28,170 nucleotides of DNA from IMG/VR virus record IMGVR_UViG_3300006104_000055, positions 1 to 28,170 of that record. One strand, written 5' to 3'. This stretch comes from a virus. Shown piece by piece: positions 3,354 through 21,506 of this stretch. The translations under genes and the position numbers were made by a program. Within the stretch, counting starts at the first letter, position 1. Every line of letters begins with the position of its first letter. The notes below the pieces were generated by a model, which ran no database searches, was not told where the DNA came from, and saw only the letters and a program-made list of their open reading frames with translations.

Positions 3354-3782
3354 TTATTTCCATTTTACTGTAATTCCGTTTCTATCTTGCATTATAGTTC
3401 CATCAAATTTAATAATCAAATCATGAATACTCGATAAATTATACTTTTCTGCTAATTCAGACATTTTTGTGGCTATTTGAGCTTTGACACTTTCTTTATC
3501 TGAATATTTTACTGATTCTTTAATAAGACGTATCAATAATTGTTTATCTTTTTCACTAGATGCGGAACTTTCCATTATTCTCGATGGAGCTTTTTTTATT
3601 GGTTGAATAGTATTCAATTCTTTCAATAGTTTTCTACCAGATGATATTGCCAAATCAGTTTTTTTATTTTCGAGACCAATTGCAGTATCCAGTACTTCAA
3701 TGATATTTTTTTGTGGTTTTCTTGTCTCATCTTCTGCTTTTTTTAATCCAGCTAGGCAAAGCATTCTTTCAAAATCATTCAT
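3354..3782 (-). CDS. Hypothetical virion/assembly protein with LAGL-type N-terminal tag
   Basis: A 142-residue, charged, largely helical protein with no recognised domain. Its first residues, MNDFERMLCLAGLKKAEDE, resemble an internal peptide of the large gene at 9541-11901 (LNRMRELAGLRSG), suggesting a shared sorting or assembly tag. The start has an AGGAAA ribosome site, and a perfect TATAAATA late box lies 29 nt upstream, which suggests late expression. The gene ends before the nuclease promoter. Confidence 0.7.
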   Translation of the reverse strand: MNDFERMLCLAGLKKAEDETRKPQKNIIEVLDTAIGLENKKTDLAISSGRKLLKELNTIQPIKKAPSRIMESSASSEKDKQLLIRLIKESVKYSDKESVKAQIATKMSELAEKYNLSSIHDLIIKFDGTIMQDRNGITVKWK

Positions 3783-4191: not shown

Positions 4192-4581
4192 TTAAATTAG
4201 TGGATTGTCGCCTTTAACATTCTTTTTTGCTTGATCAGTTGCATTTTTCTCGAGATGATCCTTTTTCTTTTCTGCATCATCTTCGCCACTTGCATGTGGA
4301 TATGGTTCTTTTGATTTGAACCATATCATCATTACATCAGTATCTTCATCAGGCTCGACTTTATCAACAAATGACAATTTTGTAAGTTGATCCATATAAA
4401 AATCATCATCAATATCCATTAATTTTGTTATATCTGGATTCTGTTCCATTTTAGATTTAAATTGTTTAAATGAAACACTAGGTAATTTTTTCTTGTAAAG
4501 CGGGATTAATAAATCCATAGCATACGACTGCACCTTCTGCTCAAAAGACATTTTCTCATTTATAATTTCAATCCATTTCAT
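4192..4581 (-). CDS. Hypothetical protein with capsid-targeting-like N terminus (MKWIEIINE)
   Basis: A 129-residue, highly charged protein. The first nine residues, MKWIEIINE, closely resemble the T4 capsid-targeting peptide (MKTYQEFIAEA type) and end in I-N-E, a plausible site for the prohead protease, which cuts after (L/I)-x-E. The same start occurs at 8385-8591 and, in variant form, at 14697-14915 and 20934-21506. The C terminus is rich in Lys, Asp and Glu. The AAGGA ribosome site is well placed. If the tag works as in T4, this is an internal head protein; the function of the mature part is unknown. Confidence 0.7.
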   Translation of the reverse strand: MKWIEIINEKMSFEQKVQSYAMDLLIPLYKKKLPSVSFKQFKSKMEQNPDITKLMDIDDDFYMDQLTKLSFVDKVEPDEDTDVMMIWFKSKEPYPHASGEDDAEKKKDHLEKNATDQAKKNVKGDNPLI

Positions 4582-6680: not shown

Positions 6681-7370
6681 TTAGATTCTCTTTTTTTTTG
6701 CGGATTCTGAAAGTGATTTTCCTTTGTTTCTGAATGATTCTTTCTTAGCACGTCCTAAAGGTTCGCCTGTTGCTGCAGATTCATCACCACCAAATAAATC
6801 ATCTGATCCTTCTGAATCTTCGTCACTACCTAAATCTAAATCTAAGTCACCAGAATCATCTCCAGTACCTTCTTCATCTTCGCCACCTAAATCTAAATCT
6901 AAATCACCAGAATCATCACCTTCAGTACCTTCGTCATCATTCATCATATCATTTGTTGGCATTGCATCTTCATCAGATACTTTACCTTCCATACGAAGAA
7001 CCTGAGTATTCAATTGATCTTTTGCAGTACGAATTGCTTCTAGTCCAGCAGCCAACTGTTCATTTGCTACCTGCTCAAACTGATCCGAAACTTCAGTTCC
7101 AAAAATACCCTTCATATTATCTGAAATTGGCATAATGTCTTCAGCAGTCATTTTTGCTAAATCTTCAGCCATTTTTTGAAGACGATCAAGAACATCTTTT
7201 GCTGCCAAAATAATTTGAGCTTTTTCCAATTCACCTTCAAACAATGAAGCTAAACTATTTTTCTTTTCAGCAATCATTTTTGCTTTCTTTGCTTCTTTTA
7301 AAGCAGAAAGTTTTGAATTCATTTCTTCTTTCAATGCACGAAGTTTTTGAATTTTTTTAATGTCTCTCAT
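6681..7370 (-). CDS. Coiled-coil/acidic scaffold-like protein
   Basis: A 229-residue protein. Residues 1-50 are a Lys/Glu/Leu-rich coiled coil, residues 50-130 are helical, and residues 140-200 are an extremely acidic Asp/Gly/Ser region with a 19-residue tandem repeat containing DSGDLDLDLG. The C terminus turns basic (KKESFRNKG then AKKKRI). This layout resembles prohead core or scaffold proteins of T4-like phages, but no specific family is recognised. The AGGAGA ribosome site is strong. The gene ends at the A-run where the ribosome may shift into the next gene, giving a short product (229) and a long one (about 925 residues). Confidence 0.75.
   Translation of the reverse strand: MRDIKKIQKLRALKEEMNSKLSALKEAKKAKMIAEKKNSLASLFEGELEKAQIILAAKDVLDRLQKMAEDLAKMTAEDIMPISDNMKGIFGTEVSDQFEQVANEQLAAGLEAIRTAKDQLNTQVLRMEGKVSDEDAMPTNDMMNDDEGTEGDDSGDLDLDLGGEDEEGTGDDSGDLDLDLGSDEDSEGSDDLFGGDESAATGEPLGRAKKESFRNKGKSLSESAKKKRI
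6690..6696 (-). other. Candidate -1 frameshift site A AAA AAG
   Basis: In the frame of the upstream gene the codons are GCA AAA AAA AAG AGA ATC TAA. The heptamer A AAA AAG is the same as the E. coli dnaX slippery site, and the stop follows two codons later. Slipping back one base gives K-K-E-N-L-K-E and enters the open frame of the 4594-6498 gene. The run of nine A's could also cause RNA polymerase slippage. No strong downstream hairpin was found by eye; an AAGGA lies about 20 nt upstream. Confidence 0.55.
6829..6942 (-). repeat. Two 57-bp tandem repeats (DLDLDL region)
   Basis: Two adjacent near-identical 57-bp units encode two copies of a 19-residue acidic unit containing DDSGDLDLDLG in the scaffold-like protein. 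They differ by a few bases, so the duplication is fairly recent but not fresh. Confidence 0.7.
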
Positions 7371-7709: not shown

Positions 7710-8372
7710 TTATAATTTTTCATATAATTTTGCTATGTTTGATTTTGCCCCAAGTGCTAAACTTCTCGACTGGTCGTATCTACTTTCCATTATTTCTGCT
7801 GTGGTGTAATCTCTTGTTTTTAGACTTTCCTGATATCTTTTCTTAAAACGAATCGCATCCAATCTATTTCTTGTATATTGTTCCTCGAAATTTAACATTT
7901 CACGAATAGCAGAACTGGTTAATGTTTCGCCACGATTTAATAACATTACCAATCCATGTGCTGCTTCATAAAGATATAAGTCTTTAGCAATAGGTTCGTT
8001 GCTATGAATATTTACAACATCGTATGTTTTTATTTCTTTACCAAGTTTTTCAAAAACATTAACATTTATTTCCCATGATCCAACTCTTGATCCAGTATCT
8101 GTTCTTTCTGTTTCCAATGCTTCTCTAACTTCACGATCATATGTTGATTGTTCTTTCATTGTTTTTGCAGTATTATTGGCAACAGAATTAAAACTCTCCA
8201 ATATTTTCTTCATTGCTGCTGAATCCGGTGTGTTATCAATAATAATAGGACCATTGTTCTTCTTGTTAATATCAGTTTTAACTGATGAAGATTTTTCAGG
8301 TTCGCCACCATTCATTATATTTAATAAATTTTTCATTGCTTGCGTGTCTTGATACGAAGGTCCAGAAACCAT
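7710..8372 (-). CDS. Helical hypothetical virion/assembly protein
   Basis: A 220-residue protein, polar at the N terminus and helical and charged at the C terminus. Two short internal peptides, AMKNLLNIMNGGE (residues 12-24) and AMKKILESFNS (53-63), resemble each other and loosely resemble the R-K-L-M-E-S-L tag of the neighbouring genes. Residues 100-220 form a compact region with LYLYEAAHGLVMLLNRGE and a long Arg-rich helix. No known domain is recognised. The ribosome site is AGAGGT. It is the last gene of the run of tagged genes between 8385 and 9538. Confidence 0.7.
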   Translation of the reverse strand: MVSGPSYQDTQAMKNLLNIMNGGEPEKSSSVKTDINKKNNGPIIIDNTPDSAAMKKILESFNSVANNTAKTMKEQSTYDREVREALETERTDTGSRVGSWEINVNVFEKLGKEIKTYDVVNIHSNEPIAKDLYLYEAAHGLVMLLNRGETLTSSAIREMLNFEEQYTRNRLDAIRFKKRYQESLKTRDYTTAEIMESRYDQSRSLALGAKSNIAKLYEKL

Positions 8373-8384
8373 AATATTTACCTC

Positions 8385-8591
8385 TTAAAGTTCATTAACT
8401 GTGTATATAATTATATCATCTTTATTTATACGATTCAAAATTCCCTTTGAAGTCATTTTTCTAGCAAGTTCATTTTCACGTTCATTTAAAGATTTGCTTG
8501 ATATTTCTTCTTGTTCTTGTATTTTTTTAACAAGTTGATTTTCTTCATTTGATATAATCGTTTGAATTCCAGATATTTCAATCCATTTCAT
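8385..8591 (-). CDS. Small protein with capsid-targeting-like N terminus (MKWIEISGI)
   Basis: A 68-residue, charged, helical protein. It starts MKWIEISGIQTIISNEE, sharing MKWIEI with the 4192-4581 protein, and has acidic sites in the first 20 residues that could serve for prohead-protease cleavage. The rest is coiled-coil-like (Glu/Gln/Lys rich), then a short Ile-rich C terminus. It overlaps the preceding gene by ATGA and has an AAAAGGA ribosome site. An internal head role is inferred from the tag only. Confidence 0.65.
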   Translation of the reverse strand: MKWIEISGIQTIISNEENQLVKKIQEQEEISSKSLNERENELARKMTSKGILNRINKDDIIIYTVNEL

Positions 8592-8863
8592 TTGAAATCC
8601 TTTTTATAAGTCCATTCGATCCAGTTTTCCATCATTTTAAACTGTTTTTTCAATTGACTAATATAAGATGGTGATCTAAATTGTCCGCCCATTTCTACAC
8701 ATTTTTGAATGCCTTCGAGTGCCAACGTATTTAATTCATTTTGTAAATGATGTAAATATTCAGCAAATTCTTCCTGTTCGCCATCGCTATATGTTCCATC
8801 GGGATTGGCTTCAGAAAGTGTTTCGAGGCTTTCCATTAGCTTTCTCATGTCTTGGCCACTCAT
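8588..8863 (-). CDS. Tagged small protein A (MSGQDMRKLMESL)
   Basis: A 91-residue protein. I place the start at the ATG of MSGQDM (8863), with GGAGG 9 nt upstream, because that gives the same first 13 residues as the next two genes. After the tag, L-S-E followed by Ala is a good match to the T4 prohead-protease site. The mature part is a soluble helical domain with aromatic residues near the end (NWIEWTYKKDFK). It overlaps both neighbours by 4 nt. No function is recognised. Confidence 0.7.
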   Translation of the reverse strand: MSGQDMRKLMESLETLSEANPDGTYSDGEQEEFAEYLHHLQNELNTLALEGIQKCVEMGGQFRSPSYISQLKKQFKMMENWIEWTYKKDFK

Positions 8864-9111
8864 TCTCCACATCCTCCAATACCTATATCTACAACCATTT
8901 CACCATTTTCATCATAGCTGGTTATAAGCATAAATGCAGTTTTATCGTAATGCTTTCCGCCATAACCATCAGTAATAACTACTTTCATATTTCTGTCAAA
9001 TTTTGATAAACGATCAATTAAATTACCAACTGTTATTGTGGTTTCTGGTGAAATTTCTTCATTAATATTCTTTAATGATTCCATTAATTTCCTCATATCT
9101 TGACCACTCAT
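8860..9111 (-). CDS. Tagged small protein B (MSGQDMRKLMESL)
   Basis: An 83-residue protein. The tag is followed by K-N-I-N-E, a possible cleavage point. The remaining 60 residues contain TVGNLIDRLSKFDRNMKVV and then D-G-Y-G-G, the pattern of a small domain common in phage and plasmid proteins (T-V-G-x-L-I-x-x-L-x-x-x-D), whose function is not established. The start at 9111 uses GGTGAT upstream and sits just inside the end of the preceding gene. Confidence 0.7.
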   Translation of the reverse strand: MSGQDMRKLMESLKNINEEISPETTITVGNLIDRLSKFDRNMKVVITDGYGGKHYDKTAFMLITSYDENGEMVVDIGIGGCGE

Positions 9112-9115
9112 TGTA

Positions 9116-9538
9116 TCACCATTTATCATTTTTTAATGATCTTGCTGTATTATCTATCCATTCCTTCTCGTCTAAATGTTTGCCTATATTTTTATCTATA
9201 AAGTTATAGGCAATTACAGCTTGTTCTATACTTGTTCCCCTATATAATACGATATCAGGTTGATGATAATTTTTTGTTGTAAATGTCATATACACGCCTT
9301 CTTTTATATTATAATTTATTATTTTCCATCCACTATAATTATACATTTCATTATTGTATGTTACACTTGCTAGACGAAATTTTGGTATCATTAAATTTTC
9401 TAATTCTTCTACAGTAACTTTATCTTTTGAAATTGGATTGTTATAGGCTTCTAAACGTTCTCTGTCTTCATTTATAACTGATTCTTCTTTAATGAAAGTC
9501 AATGATTCCATTAATTTTCTCATGTCTTGTCCACTCAT
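9116..9538 (-). CDS. Tagged small protein C (MSGQDMRKLMESL)
   Basis: A 140-residue protein with the same 13-residue start as the two downstream genes, then T-F-I-K-E-E and V-I-N-E-D, both possible prohead-protease sites. The mature region is a mixed alpha/beta domain with many Tyr and Asn (NNEMYNYSGWKIINYNIKEG) and no recognised family. A GGAAAA ribosome site precedes the ATG, 2 nt after the stop of the large gene. The tag suggests head packaging. Confidence 0.7.
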   Translation of the reverse strand: MSGQDMRKLMESLTFIKEESVINEDRERLEAYNNPISKDKVTVEELENLMIPKFRLASVTYNNEMYNYSGWKIINYNIKEGVYMTFTTKNYHQPDIVLYRGTSIEQAVIAYNFIDKNIGKHLDEKEWIDNTARSLKNDKW

Positions 9539-9540
9539 AA

Positions 9541-10056
9541 TTATTTTTCCTTTCTCAAAATTGTTTCCCCAAGATATGTCTTTCCAGATGATCTTGCTGC
9601 CTGAAGAATTTCTTCAAGTCTTTGAATCATCAATTTATATTCTGATAAACGAACATCAGGCATTAATCTTTGAATACCATTTAAATGGTTCTGAATCTCT
9701 GTATAAGCATCACCTACAACAGTTAAAGGTTCTTCTGGTATTTCTTCTACAGGATCAGAACCAATGCTTCCTGGCATACCGGAATCCATATCAGGCTCAA
9801 TATCCATATCAATATCATCCATGTCATCCCCAAACTCATCAGTTGGCATGTCAACAGGCATTTCGCCTTCATCATCAAATGGTAATTCTGATGGTAATGG
9901 TTCGTAATCCTCTGCGTCATCGACTGAAACTGTGTTTATTTCTTCACCTGGCATTTCCGGAATACCTTCGATTGTTGAAAATTCAGTTAGTTTAGCTGGA
10001 CCACTTCTTAATCCTGCTAATTCACGCATACGATTTAAATTAGGAATATTTACCAT
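9541..10056 (-). CDS. Possible nested in-frame product (171 residues)
   Basis: Inside the large gene, AAGGAG (10070-10065) stands 8 nt before an in-frame ATG at 10056, one of the best ribosome sites in the window. The product would start MVNIPNLNRMRELAGLRSG, with the LAGL tag that begins the 3354-3782 protein, and then be an acidic scaffold-like chain. In phage lambda the scaffold Nu3 is similarly nested in the 3' end of gene C. Expression of this form is inferred. Confidence 0.5.
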   Translation of the reverse strand: MVNIPNLNRMRELAGLRSGPAKLTEFSTIEGIPEMPGEEINTVSVDDAEDYEPLPSELPFDDEGEMPVDMPTDEFGDDMDDIDMDIEPDMDSGMPGSIGSDPVEEIPEEPLTVVGDAYTEIQNHLNGIQRLMPDVRLSEYKLMIQRLEEILQAARSSGKTYLGETILRKEK

Positions 10057-11901
10057 ACCTATAACTCCTTCAGTGAGATGAACATCTTCTTTATCAAACA
10101 TTTTTACTTTTCCATTAATTGCTACACCCACTGTTCCTGCTGGTCCATTTGGTATTTTGATTGTTCCTGATTCACCACATACAGTAACTTCGTCACCATA
10201 TTTGAAATCTTCATCAATTTTATCTTGAAGTAATTCAGGATCCTTTTTATGTTTTGCCGAACGATCAAGTGGATCATTTTGTTTATCTTTTTCTTTTTTT
10301 GATTTTTCAATTCTTGGTGAATATTTTCCTGATCCAAGTTCTTTTGCCATAGGGTTATGTTTTGATGGTTGTTTTTTTGTAGATTCAGAAACAATGCCTG
10401 CATTTTTAAGCATATTTGACATAGATGATGTGAATTCAGATTCGCACATTTCGTCGTCAATCTGGCAACCTGCTTCATCCATAATACGTTCTTGTGTAAG
10501 TACATCCAAAGTATCAAAATCATAATCAATTCCATTCGATCCTGTTATAGAAAGAATGTTTATTCCTCTATTTTCATCCTGTTCACGTTGATATGGATCA
10601 CGAATTCCTCTATAACCACCCCATAATCTTGCTACTACAGTAACAGTAATTTCCTCATTTGTATTTTGGTCTTCTATAAAAGTACCGAACGTAAATGGTT
10701 TAGATTGATTTCCAGTTGATGGCCAATATGCTTCTTCTACTTTTTTCTTTTTCTCTTCTGGTTCTTCCGTTTCGTCATCTTCGTTATCATCAAAATCAGA
10801 ATCGTCTTCAGTTTCATCTTCATCTTTTGGTTTAGACTCTGTTTTTTCTTTTGGTTCAAAATTTTGTTTTTTAGGTTCTTTCTTTGGTTCCGAATCTTCT
10901 TCCGTTTCTTCTGTATCACCATCAACCTGTGCTAAACCTTCGTTGTCATCATCACTGTTTTTTGTAGATTTGAAATCTCCGGTCTTTTTAAATTCTCCTT
11001 TACCATGAATATTTCCTTCGCCATCAACAGCAAATAAATCATCATCTAATAATGAATCAATTGTTCTGCCGCCTGCAGTTACTTTATTATCCATAGCATC
11101 GCCCATATCAACTTCATGATCTGGTTCTTGAATTGCACTTTTATATTGTCCTTTTGAATCTATTTCCCATCTTGGTGCATTTATATTATTTTCATCGGTT
11201 GCTTCAAGGAAAGTATTAACTTTATCAATTTTCGATTCTGATATTTTAATATTAAAATTTCCATCTAAATCGGCAAGATATTTAATATTATTGCTTTCAA
11301 GAAAATCCATAAATTTATCTGTATTCATTCTTGATAAAGATACATAATGTGTATAGCCTTTATTAATTAATGATGATTTATTTGAAATATTTTCTGCCAA
11401 TTGTGTTGGTATCAAAATTCCTCTAGCTGACTTCATTTTTCCACCTGTAATGTTTTTATATACTTCATTTGCTAAAAATGATTCTGTTAATGAATAGTCA
11501 TTAATAGTTGTTGTTCTTTTATTTGCTTGGGCATATAAATCAATTAACATGGGTTTACCCATTTTTGGCCATATATCAGACCAAGTAGCCTGCGACACAT
11601 TTTTTAATGATTCCTTTATTGATTTAAGTCCACCAGTTCTATAGCCATTTTTTACAGTAAGCCACAATTTTGTTGTATTCATTTTTTTACCTTCCTGAAA
11701 ACTCTCGCCAAGTTTGGCTTTCCATTTATCATATTCAATTCTTGCGTTTGCCATTTTATCAGTATTTTCTGACGTGATATTATCAACAACACTTTTTAAT
11801 ACATCAAGAGGCATATGTTGTATAATATGTGTTACGACATCTTCAGAATCGCCAGTCACTTTAACAAGTACATCTTTAAAAGAATTCTCATTTAATCGCA
11901 T
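9541..11901 (-). CDS. Large multidomain virion/assembly protein with nested start
   Basis: A 786-residue protein. I prefer the ATG at 11901 (MRLNENSFKD) with GGAG 7 nt upstream; an in-frame TTG at 11913 would overlap that ribosome site. Residues 1-230 are helical and soluble, about 310-395 are a highly charged Glu/Asp/Lys linker, 395-500 are a mixed domain with WGGYRGIRDPYQRE, and about 565-615 are a beta-rich segment (YGDEVTVCGESGTIKI) resembling a KOW/SH3 fold. The last 171 residues are very acidic and end in a helix. A late box lies 26 nt upstream. No family is firmly recognised; length and location suggest a head or internal protein. Confidence 0.75.
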   Translation of the reverse strand: MRLNENSFKDVLVKVTGDSEDVVTHIIQHMPLDVLKSVVDNITSENTDKMANARIEYDKWKAKLGESFQEGKKMNTTKLWLTVKNGYRTGGLKSIKESLKNVSQATWSDIWPKMGKPMLIDLYAQANKRTTTINDYSLTESFLANEVYKNITGGKMKSARGILIPTQLAENISNKSSLINKGYTHYVSLSRMNTDKFMDFLESNNIKYLADLDGNFNIKISESKIDKVNTFLEATDENNINAPRWEIDSKGQYKSAIQEPDHEVDMGDAMDNKVTAGGRTIDSLLDDDLFAVDGEGNIHGKGEFKKTGDFKSTKNSDDDNEGLAQVDGDTEETEEDSEPKKEPKKQNFEPKEKTESKPKDEDETEDDSDFDDNEDDETEEPEEKKKKVEEAYWPSTGNQSKPFTFGTFIEDQNTNEEITVTVVARLWGGYRGIRDPYQREQDENRGINILSITGSNGIDYDFDTLDVLTQERIMDEAGCQIDDEMCESEFTSSMSNMLKNAGIVSESTKKQPSKHNPMAKELGSGKYSPRIEKSKKEKDKQNDPLDRSAKHKKDPELLQDKIDEDFKYGDEVTVCGESGTIKIPNGPAGTVGVAINGKVKMFDKEDVHLTEGVIGMVNIPNLNRMRELAGLRSGPAKLTEFSTIEGIPEMPGEEINTVSVDDAEDYEPLPSELPFDDEGEMPVDMPTDEFGDDMDDIDMDIEPDMDSGMPGSIGSDPVEEIPEEPLTVVGDAYTEIQNHLNGIQRLMPDVRLSEYKLMIQRLEEILQAARSSGKTYLGETILRKEK

Positions 11902-12044: not shown

Positions 12045-12078
12045 AATATCTTTGAAAACGCGACGAAAGGTAGTATTC

Positions 12079-12324
12079 ATGGAACAAGTAATTGAAACAG
12101 TTATAACAATGATCGCAACTGGTGGACAGGGAGCAATGATCGCCATCTTGATCGCTATTATTGTTTTTCTTGTTTGGGACAGAAAACGTCTCACTGACAT
12201 AATTACCAAAAAAGATGAAAAAATAGAAAGTATCATCGATAATTATTATCGCGGAAATTTGACATTATCTGAAGCATTGAGTGGTCTTAAGCTAGTTTTA
12301 ATAGAAATCAAGTCAAAATTATAA
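12079..12324 (+). CDS. Small single-span membrane protein, holin-like
   Basis: An 81-residue protein from the ATG at 12079 with AAAGG upstream; an in-frame TTG at 12052 would give a basic leader but has no ribosome site. Residues about 16-36 (GGQGAMIAILIAIIVFLVW) form one membrane helix followed by D-R-K-R, predicting an N-out, C-in orientation. A charged coil and an amphipathic C terminus (LSEALSGLKLVLIEIK) follow. Size and layout fit class III-type holins or other small phage membrane proteins. No endolysin is in the window to support a lysis role. It has its own late promoter and precedes the PAS gene. Confidence 0.65.
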   Translation: MEQVIETVITMIATGGQGAMIAILIAIIVFLVWDRKRLTDIITKKDEKIESIIDNYYRGNLTLSEALSGLKLVLIEIKSKL

Positions 12325-12415: not shown

Positions 12416-14053
12416 ATGGGATTTTTCAAAAAAAATAAAAAAGTAGAAACTGAAAAAAAGTTTGAAGATTATCAAGAAATACATAAAAATTTCATTGATA
12501 TAGCAAACACAACCATATCAGTTTCTAAAGATTTGACCAATCATATGACAAGTAAAATCGATTCATATTTAAGACATATTTCAACAACAGCAAAAATTTT
12601 AACAGATGCTCTAATTGTTGTAGATGATTGCGGATTAATACATAGAATAAATCCAGCTGGTGAAAAAGTTTTTGGATGGGAACAATCAGAATTGCGAGGC
12701 AAAAGAATAAGCAATTTATTTCAGTCAAATACTGAAAAAACGATTGATTTTACAAAATTTATAGACACTCTTAAATTAGAAGGATGTTACGATGGTACTA
12801 CTTCAGCATTGACTACAATTAAGGGCGTCAAAAAAGATAAAACTACATTTATTGTTAATATATCTGCATCGACTTATGCGGATACAGATGGTCTTTTAAT
12901 CACTTTATTACTGGTTAGAGACATAACTGAACAGGAAACAACAAAATTAAAACTAAAAGAAAATGAAGAATTTTACAGAACAATTTTTGAAATGAGTTTT
13001 GATGCGATTGGAATTATTGAGGATTTTAAAATAATCAAAGCAAACCATAGCCTATTAAATTTATTTGGAGTAAAAATAATCCAGGACGTCGATTTCAGAG
13101 TATTCATCAGAAATGAATATATGGAACAATTTCAACTCGCACATAGCAGTCACATAAACGGCGAAGATTGCGCTTTTGAATTTGAATTGGGTTGTAAAAA
13201 AATCGACGGCAAACCACTAAGTCTTATATTTGGGGGCGCATTAGTTAAATACGAGGGCAGAAACACATCACTAATAACACTAAAAGATATAACTTTCAGA
13301 AAAAATTATGAAGATAAAATGAGAACATCCCTAGAAATGAAAAATCTTTTATTTAAAACATTACCACATCCGATCTTCATAAAAGACAAATATGGAAAAT
13401 ATTCAGACGCCAATGATGCTTTTGCTTCTTATTGTGGTTTGCCAAAAGAAAAAATAATTGGTGCATACCCGTATGAAATATTTCCTGATCATCTCGCCAA
13501 ATTATACTCAGAAACGGATGATGAGCTACGTGATTTTCACGTGGAATGGCTCAAATATAAAGGTCAACTTTTGAATCAAAAAAATGGAAATCTTATAAAT
13601 GGGATGTTTTACAAAAATTCCATGATATTAAATGATACATTTAATGGCGTCATGGGATTATTTGTTCCTATGCAAAATGACCAAAAACAACTGGTTACAT
13701 TAAACGAAAAAATCAATATGGCAATAAGTTCAATATTGGAATTAAAATTTCAGCTAGAAACTTCATTGATATATGAACAAAAAATAAACGTAGAAGAATT
13801 ATTAAATTCAGAAACACATCATTTGAGTTTATTAATTAAAAATCCACAGATAACAGAAACATTTGGGGGGAACAAATATTACATTAATGTGATTGCAACT
13901 TATAATGATTTCTACAAATTAACTTGTCAATTGGCAAAAAATGAAGAGTTATTAAAAACAAATATTGATGATTCGAATTCACAATACAATATCATAACAA
14001 ACAATCTAATAAAATCCCTAGTAATTTGGAAAAATAAAAATAACGAAAAATAA
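12416..14053 (+). CDS. Triple-PAS-domain protein without output domain
   Basis: A 545-residue cytosolic protein. PAS1 is about residues 57-175 (ALIVVDDCGLIHRINPAGEK, then VFGWEQSELRGK and RDITEQ), PAS2 about 183-297 (FYRTIFEMSFDAIGII, then LKDITFRKNYE) and PAS3 about 311-425 (LPHPIFIKDKYGKYSDAND, then GLPKEKIIG). The N-terminal 50 residues and residues about 430-545 are helical; the latter shows no HisKA H-box, ATPase G-box, GGDEF, EAL or DNA-binding motif. PAS domains sense ligands, redox state or light, or mediate dimerisation. An AAGG ribosome site and its own late promoter precede it, and a strong terminator follows. The gene is probably acquired from bacterial signalling proteins and could act by binding a host kinase or cyclase. 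Confidence 0.85.
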   Translation: MGFFKKNKKVETEKKFEDYQEIHKNFIDIANTTISVSKDLTNHMTSKIDSYLRHISTTAKILTDALIVVDDCGLIHRINPAGEKVFGWEQSELRGKRISNLFQSNTEKTIDFTKFIDTLKLEGCYDGTTSALTTIKGVKKDKTTFIVNISASTYADTDGLLITLLLVRDITEQETTKLKLKENEEFYRTIFEMSFDAIGIIEDFKIIKANHSLLNLFGVKIIQDVDFRVFIRNEYMEQFQLAHSSHINGEDCAFEFELGCKKIDGKPLSLIFGGALVKYEGRNTSLITLKDITFRKNYEDKMRTSLEMKNLLFKTLPHPIFIKDKYGKYSDANDAFASYCGLPKEKIIGAYPYEIFPDHLAKLYSETDDELRDFHVEWLKYKGQLLNQKNGNLINGMFYKNSMILNDTFNGVMGLFVPMQNDQKQLVTLNEKINMAISSILELKFQLETSLIYEQKINVEELLNSETHHLSLLIKNPQITETFGGNKYYINVIATYNDFYKLTCQLAKNEELLKTNIDDSNSQYNIITNNLIKSLVIWKNKNNEK

Positions 14054-14696: not shown

Positions 14697-14915
14697 TCAT
14701 TTATCATTATTTTTACGTTTGTTTTTTTTAGAACTTTGTTTCTTGGAATATATACCCATTCCTGTTGGATCAAAAGGGCTTTGCCCAAAGAATTGTCCGC
14801 CATTGGATTGACCTCTGCTCAACATTGCGCCAGTGGATTGCGGAACAACGGCAATTGCCGATGCACAAGTTGCACCCACAGAAGCCATTTCATTTACTAT
14901 TTCATGCCATCTCAT
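14697..14915 (-). CDS. Small tagged virion-type protein (MRWHEIVNE)
   Basis: A 72-residue protein. The ATG at 14915 gives MRWHEIVNEMASVG, a variant of the MKWIEI tag ending in V-N-E; a longer frame from 14948 would only add residues overlapping the previous gene. The middle is rich in small residues (GATCASAIAVVPQSTGAM), then an exposed Gly/Gln/Ser region and a strongly basic tail (KKQSSKKNKRKNN). The basic tail could bind packaged DNA. GGA lies ahead of the ATG, and the gene starts 14 nt before the end of the upstream gene. Confidence 0.7.
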   Translation of the reverse strand: MRWHEIVNEMASVGATCASAIAVVPQSTGAMLSRGQSNGGQFFGQSPFDPTGMGIYSKKQSSKKNKRKNNDK

Positions 14916-16110
14916 GTTTTTGTTCCTTTTGTTTAGCCACCAAATCAAGAAGTGTTTTAAATATTTTAATAAGTTGTTGTTGATTTAATTCAGTATCAGA
15001 CTTCATGTTTACACCAGAAGTTTTAAATGCACTTGCCAGCATTTTATCATTACTTATAGATGCATGACCTTTTAACCATTTCAAAGTATTTTTAATATTC
15101 ATATCAACATTAGCTGAATCTATATCATGTTTATATGCTGAAAAAATCTTTTTTGCACGATCTGTATTGTCAGGCTGCGATGGATCCGCTGCTACTGCTG
15201 CAGCGCCACCGCCAATAATAGGTCCAAGAACATCACCTATTTTTTTAACCAAATGAGTAATCTTAAATTGATCCTTAACAGCATCCAATCTAATATATAA
15301 ATTTGCCTGTATGGTTGCATCATTTTGATAATCGTTAAGAGCCTTAACATATTTAATCCAAGCACGGTCATAACTACTATCATTAATATCCAAACCTAAA
15401 TTAGCAGGGTTTAACGCCTCTAATTTTGCCATTTTTTCTGGTGTGGCTAACATATCATAACTAAATGTTTTTCCATCCAAAGTCAAAGTACCTCTATATT
15501 CCGAAATCCCTGCGGCAAGGTCTTTTCCATGCATTACTATATCCGGGGATATACCCGCTGCAATAACATTAGTCAATCCATGTATAACATCTTTAGCTAC
15601 TTCACCGCCAATAACGGAAATAGCTGCCATTCCTATTGCTTTACCTGCAGCAGTAGATAATTTTTCACCTTTCATCATTCCTGCACTTGTTCTTAATAAA
15701 CCAGCAACCATCATTCCTGCGGCCGGCGTTCCCAACACAGAAACCGCTCCTGCTAAAGCACCAATTCCAAAATTCGTCCATTTTGGGTGTTCTTTAGCAA
15801 AATTTCCAATCTGCTGGGCATATTTTACTGCTTTATGATTATCACCAAGTTTTGCTTTTATTTTCTGAATAAATTCATCTGCTTTTTGATCAGCCATTTT
15901 AATAGGGGCAGAATTTTGTGCCTTATCTTTTACTTTTGTTAATATGGATTTTATTTTTGATATAGTACCATCATCTTCATTGAGTGATGATAATACCGGA
16001 AGCAATTCTTCATCTATTATTCTAAACATTTCATAATGCGATTCGTTGATTGAAGATTTATTCATTAACGAGATAGTGTTATAATTGGGAGACAATTCGT
16101 ATAGACGCAT
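14902..16110 (-). CDS. Internal/membrane-active virion protein candidate
   Basis: A 402-residue protein. It starts MRLYELSPNYN with an I-N-E at about residues 21-23, so may also carry a sorting peptide. Residues 115-195 hold two Gly/Ala-rich hydrophobic segments (FGIGALAGAVSVLG, then AAGKAIGMAAISVIGG) of the kind found in colicin-like, holin-like or ejection proteins, and a second short one lies near 295-305 (LGPIIGGGAAAVAA). The rest is helical and charged. It forms an operon with the genes upstream (1-nt overlap, GGGGG ribosome site). A role in membrane passage of DNA is a speculation from these segments. Confidence 0.65.
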   Translation of the reverse strand: MRLYELSPNYNTISLMNKSSINESHYEMFRIIDEELLPVLSSLNEDDGTISKIKSILTKVKDKAQNSAPIKMADQKADEFIQKIKAKLGDNHKAVKYAQQIGNFAKEHPKWTNFGIGALAGAVSVLGTPAAGMMVAGLLRTSAGMMKGEKLSTAAGKAIGMAAISVIGGEVAKDVIHGLTNVIAAGISPDIVMHGKDLAAGISEYRGTLTLDGKTFSYDMLATPEKMAKLEALNPANLGLDINDSSYDRAWIKYVKALNDYQNDATIQANLYIRLDAVKDQFKITHLVKKIGDVLGPIIGGGAAAVAADPSQPDNTDRAKKIFSAYKHDIDSANVDMNIKNTLKWLKGHASISNDKMLASAFKTSGVNMKSDTELNQQQLIKIFKTLLDLVAKQKEQKHEMA

Positions 16111-16886
16111 TATTTCCCCCTGTTTTTTATAATGTTATATACAACCCCCGCTGCCATTCCTGTGGCAATTGCTCCAAGTGTTTTAAGAAATTTATTTCCT
16201 TCTTTTTTAGGTTCATGATCATGTGAATCTTCACCAGTTTCAGCATTGGCTACATTATCTAATTCCAATTTTTCTTGTTTTGCCAACGAATTAAGATATG
16301 GTAAAAGTTCACTTTTTCTGTATCTTGCTCTGAATGCTTGAAGTAATCTAGTCATAACAAGCTGTTTATCATGTTTTTTTAAATCAGACCATTCTATAAT
16401 CAGTCTGCGCATACTTCTGTAATTTGCATTATCTATACATAATTGTGTTTGCATATTAAATAGGCAGCGTTGTTCATATGAATCATTAAGTTTTGGTGTT
16501 TCAAAACTTTGGAGTAATCTTCTTAACATTGTTTGATCAACATGTATTCTCGATCTTAATACATTATTTGCTTCATGATCGGAAAGATGCTTATTCATAT
16601 CATCATTATTGCCTATTAATAGTGTGAGCATTATTCTTAGATCTGATGCTCCTGTCATAAAACTATCAAAATGACCATTCATATATGTTCTATAAGCATA
16701 TTTTTTTACTATCGGTGCATAATTAAATTCATGTTTAAGAATATAAAGTGTCAAGAAATATAAAAAAACACCATCAGTAATATCCTTTAATGAATATGAA
16801 GATATGTGTGATTTACTAGGAATCAAATAGCTTTCATTTAATTCTTGCAAAAATGTTATTTGTGGTTTCACTTCAAAATCTATCAT
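16110..16886 (-). CDS. Hypothetical protein with C-terminal membrane segment
   Basis: A 258-residue protein. The first 210 residues are a soluble helical domain with many Arg and Leu (for example RLLQAFRARYRKSELLPYL); a charged linker (HDHEPKKEGNK) follows, and residues about 235-253 (FLKTLGAIATGMAAGVVYN) form one membrane helix ending in a basic tail. The upstream overlap is ATGA and the downstream one TAATG, indicating tight coupling with both neighbours. With its hydrophobic partner it may form part of an internal head or ejection complex. No family is recognised. Confidence 0.65.
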   Translation of the reverse strand: MIDFEVKPQITFLQELNESYLIPSKSHISSYSLKDITDGVFLYFLTLYILKHEFNYAPIVKKYAYRTYMNGHFDSFMTGASDLRIMLTLLIGNNDDMNKHLSDHEANNVLRSRIHVDQTMLRRLLQSFETPKLNDSYEQRCLFNMQTQLCIDNANYRSMRRLIIEWSDLKKHDKQLVMTRLLQAFRARYRKSELLPYLNSLAKQEKLELDNVANAETGEDSHDHEPKKEGNKFLKTLGAIATGMAAGVVYNIIKNRGK

Positions 16887-17806
16887 TCTACATCTTTCCC
16901 TGCTAATGTTTTCAAAAATGCAAAACCGACTTTAGGTAATTTATTGTTGTTTTTTGCATCTTTATATGATATATCTTTAAATTCATCTGCTAAATCATCT
17001 ATTTTTGCTGTAATTCCTATGGATTTCAAATTTTGTCTTAGGTGCTGTTTATCTAGTTTATGCTGATTTCCAGAAGATCGATTTTGTGTTTTTCCATGAT
17101 TTTCTTGTTCTGTATCTTCATCATCATCATCATCTGAATCTGAAGCAGAACCATTTTTCATTTGTGTTACAATTTTTGATTGTAATTGATCGATAAATGG
17201 TGATTGTTTTTTCATTTCTTCACCATAAAGAACGAGACTGCAGCAAAATTTCATCAGTTCTTTATCCTTGAGATTAAATCCTTCAATTAAAAATTCTTTA
17301 CTTTCGCCAAGATATTTTTGTAAATTATTATACGATGCAAAAAGATCTTCTTTTGGTGTATTGTTTTCCTGGCTATCTTTGGATTTTTCTATTTGTTTTT
17401 GTTTTTCTAATGCTGCTTTCGCGTTGCTAGTATCAGTTTTTTCATTCGATCTATATGCTGATTTTGCTTGTTTTCCTATCGACTGTAATGCTTTTGCTAC
17501 TACTGCTTTATCGCACTTTAGTTTATGTATTGCCCACTGCGTTAATGTAGAAATATAATCATCTTCATTTTCAATGTTTTTCCCTGTTGTTTGTAGTTGC
17601 CCAATATAATTTATCCAAGCGGTCTTTATAGTTTTTGCTTCTTTTGTTATTAAAACACGCCCCTTTGCTTTGTCGCTAAATTTTGCCAGCACAGTATCCA
17701 GCAGTTCAGAGAAGAAACCTTCCTCAAGAATATCTTCGTTATTAATATTTTCATTAATAATCTGCAAAGAGTTCATTAAATTTCTTATTTGTGCAGCATC
17801 ACTCAT
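16883..17806 (-). CDS. Tagged hypothetical protein (MSDAAQIRNLMNSL)
   Basis: A 307-residue, charged protein. Its start MSDAAQIRNLMNSLQIINEN aligns with the MSGQDMRKLMESL-x-x-I-N-E start of three genes at 8588-9538. The body is helical, with a Lys/Gln/Glu linker near 130-150, a run of six acidic residues (SDSDDDDDED) near 225 and a C-terminal helical domain. The ribosome site is GGAGAG. It is coupled by ATGA to both neighbours. An internal head protein is the best guess. Confidence 0.65.
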   Translation of the reverse strand: MSDAAQIRNLMNSLQIINENINNEDILEEGFFSELLDTVLAKFSDKAKGRVLITKEAKTIKTAWINYIGQLQTTGKNIENEDDYISTLTQWAIHKLKCDKAVVAKALQSIGKQAKSAYRSNEKTDTSNAKAALEKQKQIEKSKDSQENNTPKEDLFASYNNLQKYLGESKEFLIEGFNLKDKELMKFCCSLVLYGEEMKKQSPFIDQLQSKIVTQMKNGSASDSDDDDDEDTEQENHGKTQNRSSGNQHKLDKQHLRQNLKSIGITAKIDDLADEFKDISYKDAKNNNKLPKVGFAFLKTLAGKDVE

Positions 17807-20933: not shown

Positions 20934-21506
20934 TTAGATTCGTTTTCCATAATCATTATTAAATGGTGTTTGTATTAGCCCATCAAAATGCAGTGTAGTT
21001 AGTGGTGGTTTTATTCTTCCTGACAACAATAATGTTTTTATTTTCATTATTTTATCATCATATTCCTGACGCTTTAATTCACAATCATCAAATGATATTG
21101 ACACATGTGGCACCCAATCACTATATTTTTGTGGTATTTTTCCTGATGGCGTTAACATACTACCTGGTAATATGCTGCGTAATATTTCATGCCTATATTT
21201 CACCAACGCACCAGTTCCGACACATCTTAAAAAAACTGCATTTCTAATACCTTTTTCTGGCAATGTAAAAAATCCCCATGTAGTATAGTTATCTATTTCC
21301 ACTGAAAAATTTAAAGATTGAAGATTATCTGGTAAAGGAATATTTTTATGTTTGAATAATGTCATATGATATTCATTTTTTGGTAAAGGATCGATTTCGA
21401 GTTCATGACAAAAATTTATTAATATATTTTCATCTGCTGCTGATAATTTTGCGGCAATAAAACAACCTTTCACATCATTGTTTTCAATTATTTCTTGATA
21501 TCTCAT
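20934..21506 (-). CDS. Tagged 2H phosphoesterase (possibly Acb1-like)
   Basis: A 190-residue protein with the two H-x-(T/S) motifs of the 2H phosphoesterase superfamily: His47-Met-Thr49 (EYHMTLF) and His134-Val-Ser136 (WVPHVSISFD). Superfamily members act on 2',3'-cyclic or 2'-5'-linked nucleotides; T4 Acb1 (gene 57B) degrades the cyclic nucleotide signal of CBASS immunity. The first nine residues, MRYQEIIEN, form a variant of the capsid-targeting-like tag. This pairing suggests packaging and injection at infection, which is inference. An RNA-end or ADP-ribose-product phosphodiesterase is also possible. The ribosome site is weak (AAGAATTA), and the ATG lies 1 nt after the upstream stop. Confidence 0.75.
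   Translation of the reverse strand: MRYQEIIENNDVKGCFIAAKLSAADENILINFCHELEIDPLPKNEYHMTLFKHKNIPLPDNLQSLNFSVEIDNYTTWGFFTLPEKGIRNAVFLRCVGTGALVKYRHEILRSILPGSMLTPSGKIPQKYSDWVPHVSISFDDCELKRQEYDDKIMKIKTLLLSGRIKPPLTTLHFDGLIQTPFNNDYGKRI

Follow-up and report, generated by a model that had tools for sequence, protein, structure and literature searches.

Three adjacent and otherwise unrelated genes of a jumbo phage begin with one and the same 13-residue peptide, followed in each case by xx[LI]xE in a fixed register. We consider it likely that the peptide and the site together act as a variant of the T4 capsid-targeting signal (CTS), an N-terminal label that would address cargo proteins to the prohead, with which they would be packed and from which they would then be cut. 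The observed basis of this reading is the identity of the tag, its selection at the protein level, its modularity, its recurrence in related jumbo phages, the virion operon in which it lies, the enrichment and placement of the [IL]xE site, and the gp21-type protease encoded by relatives.

Source DNA and Related Phages

The DNA analyzed here (the window) is a complete IMG/VR virus record of 28170 bp and represents a 28-kb fragment of a jumbo myovirus. Its placement with Sinorhizobium phage Phosso, Agrobacterium phage Atu_ph07, and Pseudomonas phage PA5oct rests on DnaB and on the structural ORF 6681-7370, and its gene order is that of Phosso 315-350 kb and Atu_ph07 20-66 kb. A protein search of IMG/VR with the tagged ORF 9116-9538 and DnaB as queries found no close relatives. 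Because Phosso genes 454 and 455, the counterparts of the genes flanking the three tagged ORFs, adjoin each other, the three tagged genes are additional at this site in the window; L020 has a different small gene at this position. The features of the window are listed in Table 1.

Table 1. Features of the window discussed in the text; a slash follows the Glu of a putative cleavage site.
Feature	Position	Strand	Remarks
Class-1 tag protein	4192..4581	-	MKWIEIINE (I-N-E); counterparts MRLIDLLES (Atu_ph07), MKIKDILVES (PA5oct)
Virion structural protein homologue	6681..7370	-	phrog_14154, E=2.5e-31; anchor for finding relatives
Conserved virion-cluster protein	7710..8372	-	Two tag-like motifs: AMKNLLNIMNG (8307-8345, near N terminus), AAMKKILESFN (residues 52-62, 8187-8225)
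Small protein, class-1 (M[KR]-type) start	8385..8591	-	MKWIEISGI; Atu_ph07 homologue gp46 annotated as virion structural protein
Tagged ORF 1, 91 aa	8588..8863	-	MSGQDMRKLMESL-ET-LSE/A; tag and site at 8810-8863
Tagged ORF 2, 83 aa	8860..9111	-	MSGQDMRKLMESL-KN-INE/E; tag and site at 9058-9111
Tagged ORF 3, 140 aa	9116..9538	-	MSGQDMRKLMESL-TF-IKE/E; tag and site (residues 1-18) at 9485-9538; transcribed first of the three
Large acidic mosaic protein	9541..11901	-	Adjoins the tagged trio on its upstream side; partly homologous to Phosso gp454
Small membrane-type protein	12052..12324	+	Inside virion cluster; also in Phosso and Atu_ph07
PAS-domain sensor-like protein	12416..14053	+	Inside virion cluster; also in Phosso and Atu_ph07
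Class-1 tag protein	14697..14915	-	MRWHEIVNE; start set at internal ATG of ORF 14697-14948
N-terminal FLQELNES protein	16110..16886	-	Counterparts keep FLQxLxx[LI]xES; N-terminal extensions vary in length
Variant-tag ORF, 307 aa	16883..17806	-	MSDAAQIRNLMNSL-QI-INE
RNA-ligase/2H-like protein	20934..21506	-	Class-1 start MRYQEIIE

The Tagged ORFs of the Window

An initial annotation of this DNA had claimed that three neighboring genes share an identical 13-residue start, that the rest of each protein is unrelated, that the peptide itself is under selection, and that a variant tag begins the 16883-17806 protein, and all four points were borne out. The three ORFs all start with MSGQDMRKLMESL. Past residue 18, the bodies lack significant mutual similarity (best E above 1). 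The 39-nt tag DNA copies show 4, 8, and 10 nt differences, all of which are synonymous, and the 40 nt upstream of each tag are unrelated among the three. The start of ORF 1 overlaps the stop of ORF 2 by 4 nt, ORF 2 and ORF 3 are separated by 4 nt, and all three share their strand with the large acidic ORF upstream and with the virion-type genes downstream. Chance is excluded because the reversed tag pattern has 0 matches in the window and 0 in 15 tag-bearing contigs, against 34 tag matches in these contigs, which were picked for carrying the tag.

The same annotation had named L-S-E, I-N-E, and K-E-E as the sites after the tags; the first two stand, and the third is actually I-K-E. What it overlooked is the common register: in ETLSE, KNINE, and TFIKE alike, xx[LI]xE places its Glu at residue 18 (three of three tags). 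The variant ORF, in which the peptide and site read MSDAAQIRNLMNSLQIINE, keeps the spacing of these tags (SL, two residues, then I-x-E).

As for the bodies, residues 23-70 of ORF 2 resemble weakly the small phage families phrog_3939 and phrog_11236, while a Pfam search with the three bodies and a tblastn search of phage records with the ORF 2 body gave nothing useful. AlphaFold2 models of ORF 3 and ORF 2 (pLDDT 36.5 and 57.7, respectively) are too poor for fold searches; both place a helix over the tag, to which we give little weight at such pLDDT.

Occurrence of the Tag in Other Phages

Since a loose motif regex gave only weak N-terminal enrichment across the relatives, stricter patterns were used. 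A degenerate scan of IMG/VR DNA for MRKLME-x-hydrophobic-xx-hydrophobic-xE, in which no N-terminal position was required, found 17 matching stretches, and 13 of them are MN[DE]-MRKLME at an ORF start with the MRKLME core at residue 4. A scan for MN[DE]-MR-x-LME found 56 stretches. The scan matches were deduplicated and joined by a few one-residue variants from the same loci, giving 63 different tagged proteins of the MN[DE]-MRKLME type, which fall into 38 unrelated BLAST clusters when the first 20 residues are removed. This search for the tag in proteins of related phages, a check that the initial annotation had suggested, thus shows a tag far more widespread than the window does. Up to eight tagged proteins occur on one contig, often in one operon. 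A homologue of the structural ORF 6681-7370 is encoded by 8 of 23 tag contigs, among them every one longer than 200 kb. On L068 and L100, primase, DnaB, and a gene of 90-100 aa are followed by tagged and class-1 tagged genes, which is the order in the window around 16883-17806. Forms bridging to MSGQDMRKLME of the window are MSDMRKLME (G006) and STEQMRKLME (G004, at the contig end).

The pattern M-[S/T/..]-G-Q-D-M-R-K-L-M-E had no match outside the window, and the strict tag was not found in three isolates with sequenced genomes; a tblastn search of isolates with the 20-residue tag found nothing, the method being weak for so short a query. In 257 Gb of bacterial genomes, five MNEMRKLME matches were one 24-codon ORF present in five genomes and were rejected as a tag system. 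In a full-text search of a library of papers, MRKLME was mentioned nowhere. One tagged protein (L061) carries the phrog_2650 domain, which is probably Pfam DUF7448 and which occurs also in Bacillus phages without the tag; the 132-aa protein of Bacillus phage Goe25 begins near this domain and therefore cannot hold the tag.

A recent tandem duplication, in which the N-terminal coding DNA would be alike by chance or gene conversion, would account for three tagged genes that adjoin each other. It is already contradicted by the differences between tag copies, all synonymous between unrelated flanks, and by the occurrence of nearly the same peptide in other phages, where it heads dozens of unrelated proteins, and we regard it as hardly credible.

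The [IL]xE Site and Mosaic Proteins

Among the 63 tagged proteins, the Glu of an [IL]xE is at residue 16 in 31, and an [IL]xE lies within residues 10-18 in 41, compared with 5-10 in later windows of nine residues. When one protein per cluster is counted, 23 of 38 have the site within residues 12-18, compared with 1-5 in later windows. This enrichment is not due to ascertainment, because the MN[DE]-MR-x-LME pattern left those residues unconstrained. In addition, residues 7-9 (LME) form an L-x-E of their own, with A, T, or S after it, so that an alternative cut there is possible.

The start of L103 reads MNEMRKLMESVEQIEE/GYFSRLATEMDEL, where the second part begins a module GYFSR..., and L105 has the same module internally as ESVGKIDE/GYFSRMAAAIDEL. 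Since the module recurs behind another [IL]xE, the Glu at residue 16 is a module joint. In mosaic proteins, ends of shared segments lie at a median of 8 residues from an [ILV]xE compared with 27 for random points, the ends not being independent of each other, and the count of [ILV]xE[GAS] in these proteins is not above that of shuffled sequence. The large tagged proteins (L063:1115-3517, L083:2076-4658, L103:7527-9473, L105:4009-6045, and L109:3633-4574) are such mosaics, assembled from shuffled modules with joints near [ILV]xE, which gives them the look of cargo polyproteins that would be processed inside the prohead.

The tag could instead be a docking peptide without processing, a helix that binds a virion or core protein and is retained in the mature product, with [LI]xE being incidental. 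About a third of the 63 tagged proteins have no [IL]xE in residues 10-18, as would then be expected, and the 7710-8372 family has a related motif in its interior, AAMKKILESFN, which is kept in Phosso, Atu_ph07, L007, L008, L009, and L016 without a clear [LI]xE. The enrichment of the site at one exact position and its use as the module junction in L103 and L105 argue against this explanation, which we judge unlikely. The AAMKKILESF segment is the best-conserved part of the N-terminal half of the 7710-8372 protein across the clade, and this helix may be the origin or the partner of the tag.

Intermediate Forms

At the position of the 16883 ORF, Phosso has MTNDIRKHMDMLNEA and L007 has MTDRNTDMRRIADQIAEA; homology is weak (E=0.008 and E=0.006, respectively) and is supported by synteny. 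These counterparts start with MTND-IRKHMDMLNE/A and MTDRNTD-MRRIADQIAE/A, a 415-kb relative has the start MAD-IRKFMDMLSE/E, and an Atu_ph07 ORF near its protease has MS-IRKFLNIINE/S. In all four, the distance from the core M/I to the Glu equals the T4 spacing, whereas the site of the MRKLME form is three residues further from the core. Because homologues with these intermediate forms keep the T4 core-to-site spacing, the short sequences compared suggest that the tag is a T4-type signal lengthened at its N terminus, and not a second class of unrelated origin. The proposal of a second class of capsid-targeting peptide in the initial annotation is therefore accepted in part: a selected peptide on unrelated proteins, a virion operon, gp21-type sites, and a protease in the clade agree with a capsid-targeting role, which is predicted, while the label “second class” fits poorly with the intermediate forms.

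Virion Operon and Prohead Protease

The Atu_ph07 cluster syntenic with the window (CDS 31-76) contains 29 virion proteins identified by ESI-MS/MS (PMC6102473), and most of PA5oct gp245-258 are marked as detected by ESI-MS/MS. The PA5oct counterpart of the 4192-4581 protein is MS-detected too. Because both syntenic clusters are verified by MS, the neighborhood of the tagged ORFs is a virion-protein cluster. In PA5oct, an N-terminal M[KR] with [hydrophobic]xE accompanies MS detection in the expected direction, which is not significant (5/63 vs. 3/139, p=0.11).

A protease of the gp21 type (PF03420, S77) scored over the cut-off in Phosso, Atu_ph07, and PA5oct, and was also found in 4 of 15 tag contigs, of which two exceed 300 kb, as well as in another two relatives; these six sequences are G001, G006, G007, G008, G018, and G019. 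No prohead protease gene was recognized within the 28-kb fragment.

These data bear on a third explanation, that the peptide is a signal for sorting, stability, or assembly that has nothing to do with the head and is directed, for instance, to a replication compartment or a host protease. Some tagged genes are indeed outside the structural cluster, and the bodies of tagged proteins have almost no annotated function, but many tagged genes are in the virion operon beside tags like the T4 CTS, and relatives encode the gp21-type protease; we consider such a signal quite improbable.

Class-1 Tags and Neighboring Genes

Class-1 tags are M[KR]-type N termini ending in [ILV]xE, represented in the window by MKWIEIINE, MRWHEIVNE, and MRYQEIIE and in relatives by starts such as MRAYEILNE and MKIRELLTE. 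They look like the T4 CTS; the N-terminal sequence of a T4 IP is MKTYQEFIAE. Ten tandem paralogues of Atu_ph07 (gp53-62, L005:19485-29508) start with MRWEQLTE and related sequences of the form M[KR]W-x-QL-x-E. The bodies of these paralogues resemble repeated T4-Alt-like effectors, as candidates only (YRGM motif).

A further motif, RM-x-x-LAG[LV], recurs as FERMLCLAGL, NRMRELAGLR, and TRLRQLAGVVTE, either N-terminal or internal. Its loci are 3354-3782 (N terminus) and 9541-11901 (internal) in the window and L020:7857-8171, and it is conserved in Phosso gp454.

Proposed Mechanism and Significance

In the proposed address tag for the prohead, the peptide would probably form a short amphipathic helix through which the cargo docks onto the core while the prohead grows. 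A gp21-type protease would then cut after Glu 18 (Glu 16 in the MNEMRKLME form), and this cleavage would release the cargo within the head; injection of the DNA may then carry the cargo along. The tag would be a module passed among cargo genes, so that the bodies turn over and the tag stays. More tentatively, and with somewhat less than even confidence, we suggest that this clade of jumbo phages loads its heads by two addresses, the extended MRKLME-type and the M[KR]-type tags being placed on separate, fast-changing sets of cargo, which might include mosaic polyproteins released in the prohead at repeated [ILV]xE joints.

We conclude that the tag is real and widespread in uncultured jumbo phages and that it is probably a variant, hitherto undescribed, of the way in which T4 targets proteins to its capsid. 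If so, the head cargo of jumbo phages, mostly annotated as hypothetical, could be recognized directly from sequence by a strict and searchable peptide, which would also supply new minimal labels for loading proteins into large capsids. The internal-protein strategy of T4 would prove to be far more widespread and more heavily used than known.

Comparison with Known Systems

In T4, the CTS is found on IPI, IPII, IPIII, and Alt (Mullaney and Black, 1996; see PMC9026906). For packaging, IPIII needs only its first 10 residues, and gp21 cuts after L/I-x-E (PMC9026906). The tags described here share with the T4 CTS a short N-terminal peptide common to otherwise unlike small proteins, an M-[KR]-x-hydrophobic core, an L/I-x-E end of the kind cut by a gp21-type protease (in all four window tags), a location among virion genes, and modular cargo with turnover between phages. 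While the T4 core is at the initiator Met and the cut is about 10 residues in, the core here is 3-6 residues in (after MN[DE]-, MSGQD-, or MSDAAQ-) and the site is at 16 or 18; even the counterparts with T4-like spacing from core to site are N-terminally extended. The exact conservation is also much longer than in T4 and the carriers per phage are many more, and packaging is a prediction from sequence here.

SPN3US gp53 and gp54, whose N termini are identical, are likewise proteins of a giant phage with an N-terminal propeptide region conserved beyond the rest, processed there by a gp21-related protease (PMC5694885). They are, however, paralogues with propeptides of over 100 residues (PMC5694885), whereas the tag here is under 20 residues and its bodies are unrelated. 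In P1, N-terminal residues of DarB send the protein and a reporter into the head (PMC9024508), which resembles the role proposed here; unlike the present tag, the Dar proteins have no shared consensus that was found and no described relation to [LI]xE (PMC9024508). Another parallel is given by the class-1 tags (M[KR]W-x-QL-x-E and M[KR]-x-x-EIL-x-E, as in Atu_ph07 gp53-62 and window 4192-4581), which differ in having M[KR] at residue 1 and lacking the MRKLME core, and which share with the MRKLME tag the same operons, the N-terminal position, and the [ILV]-x-E end.
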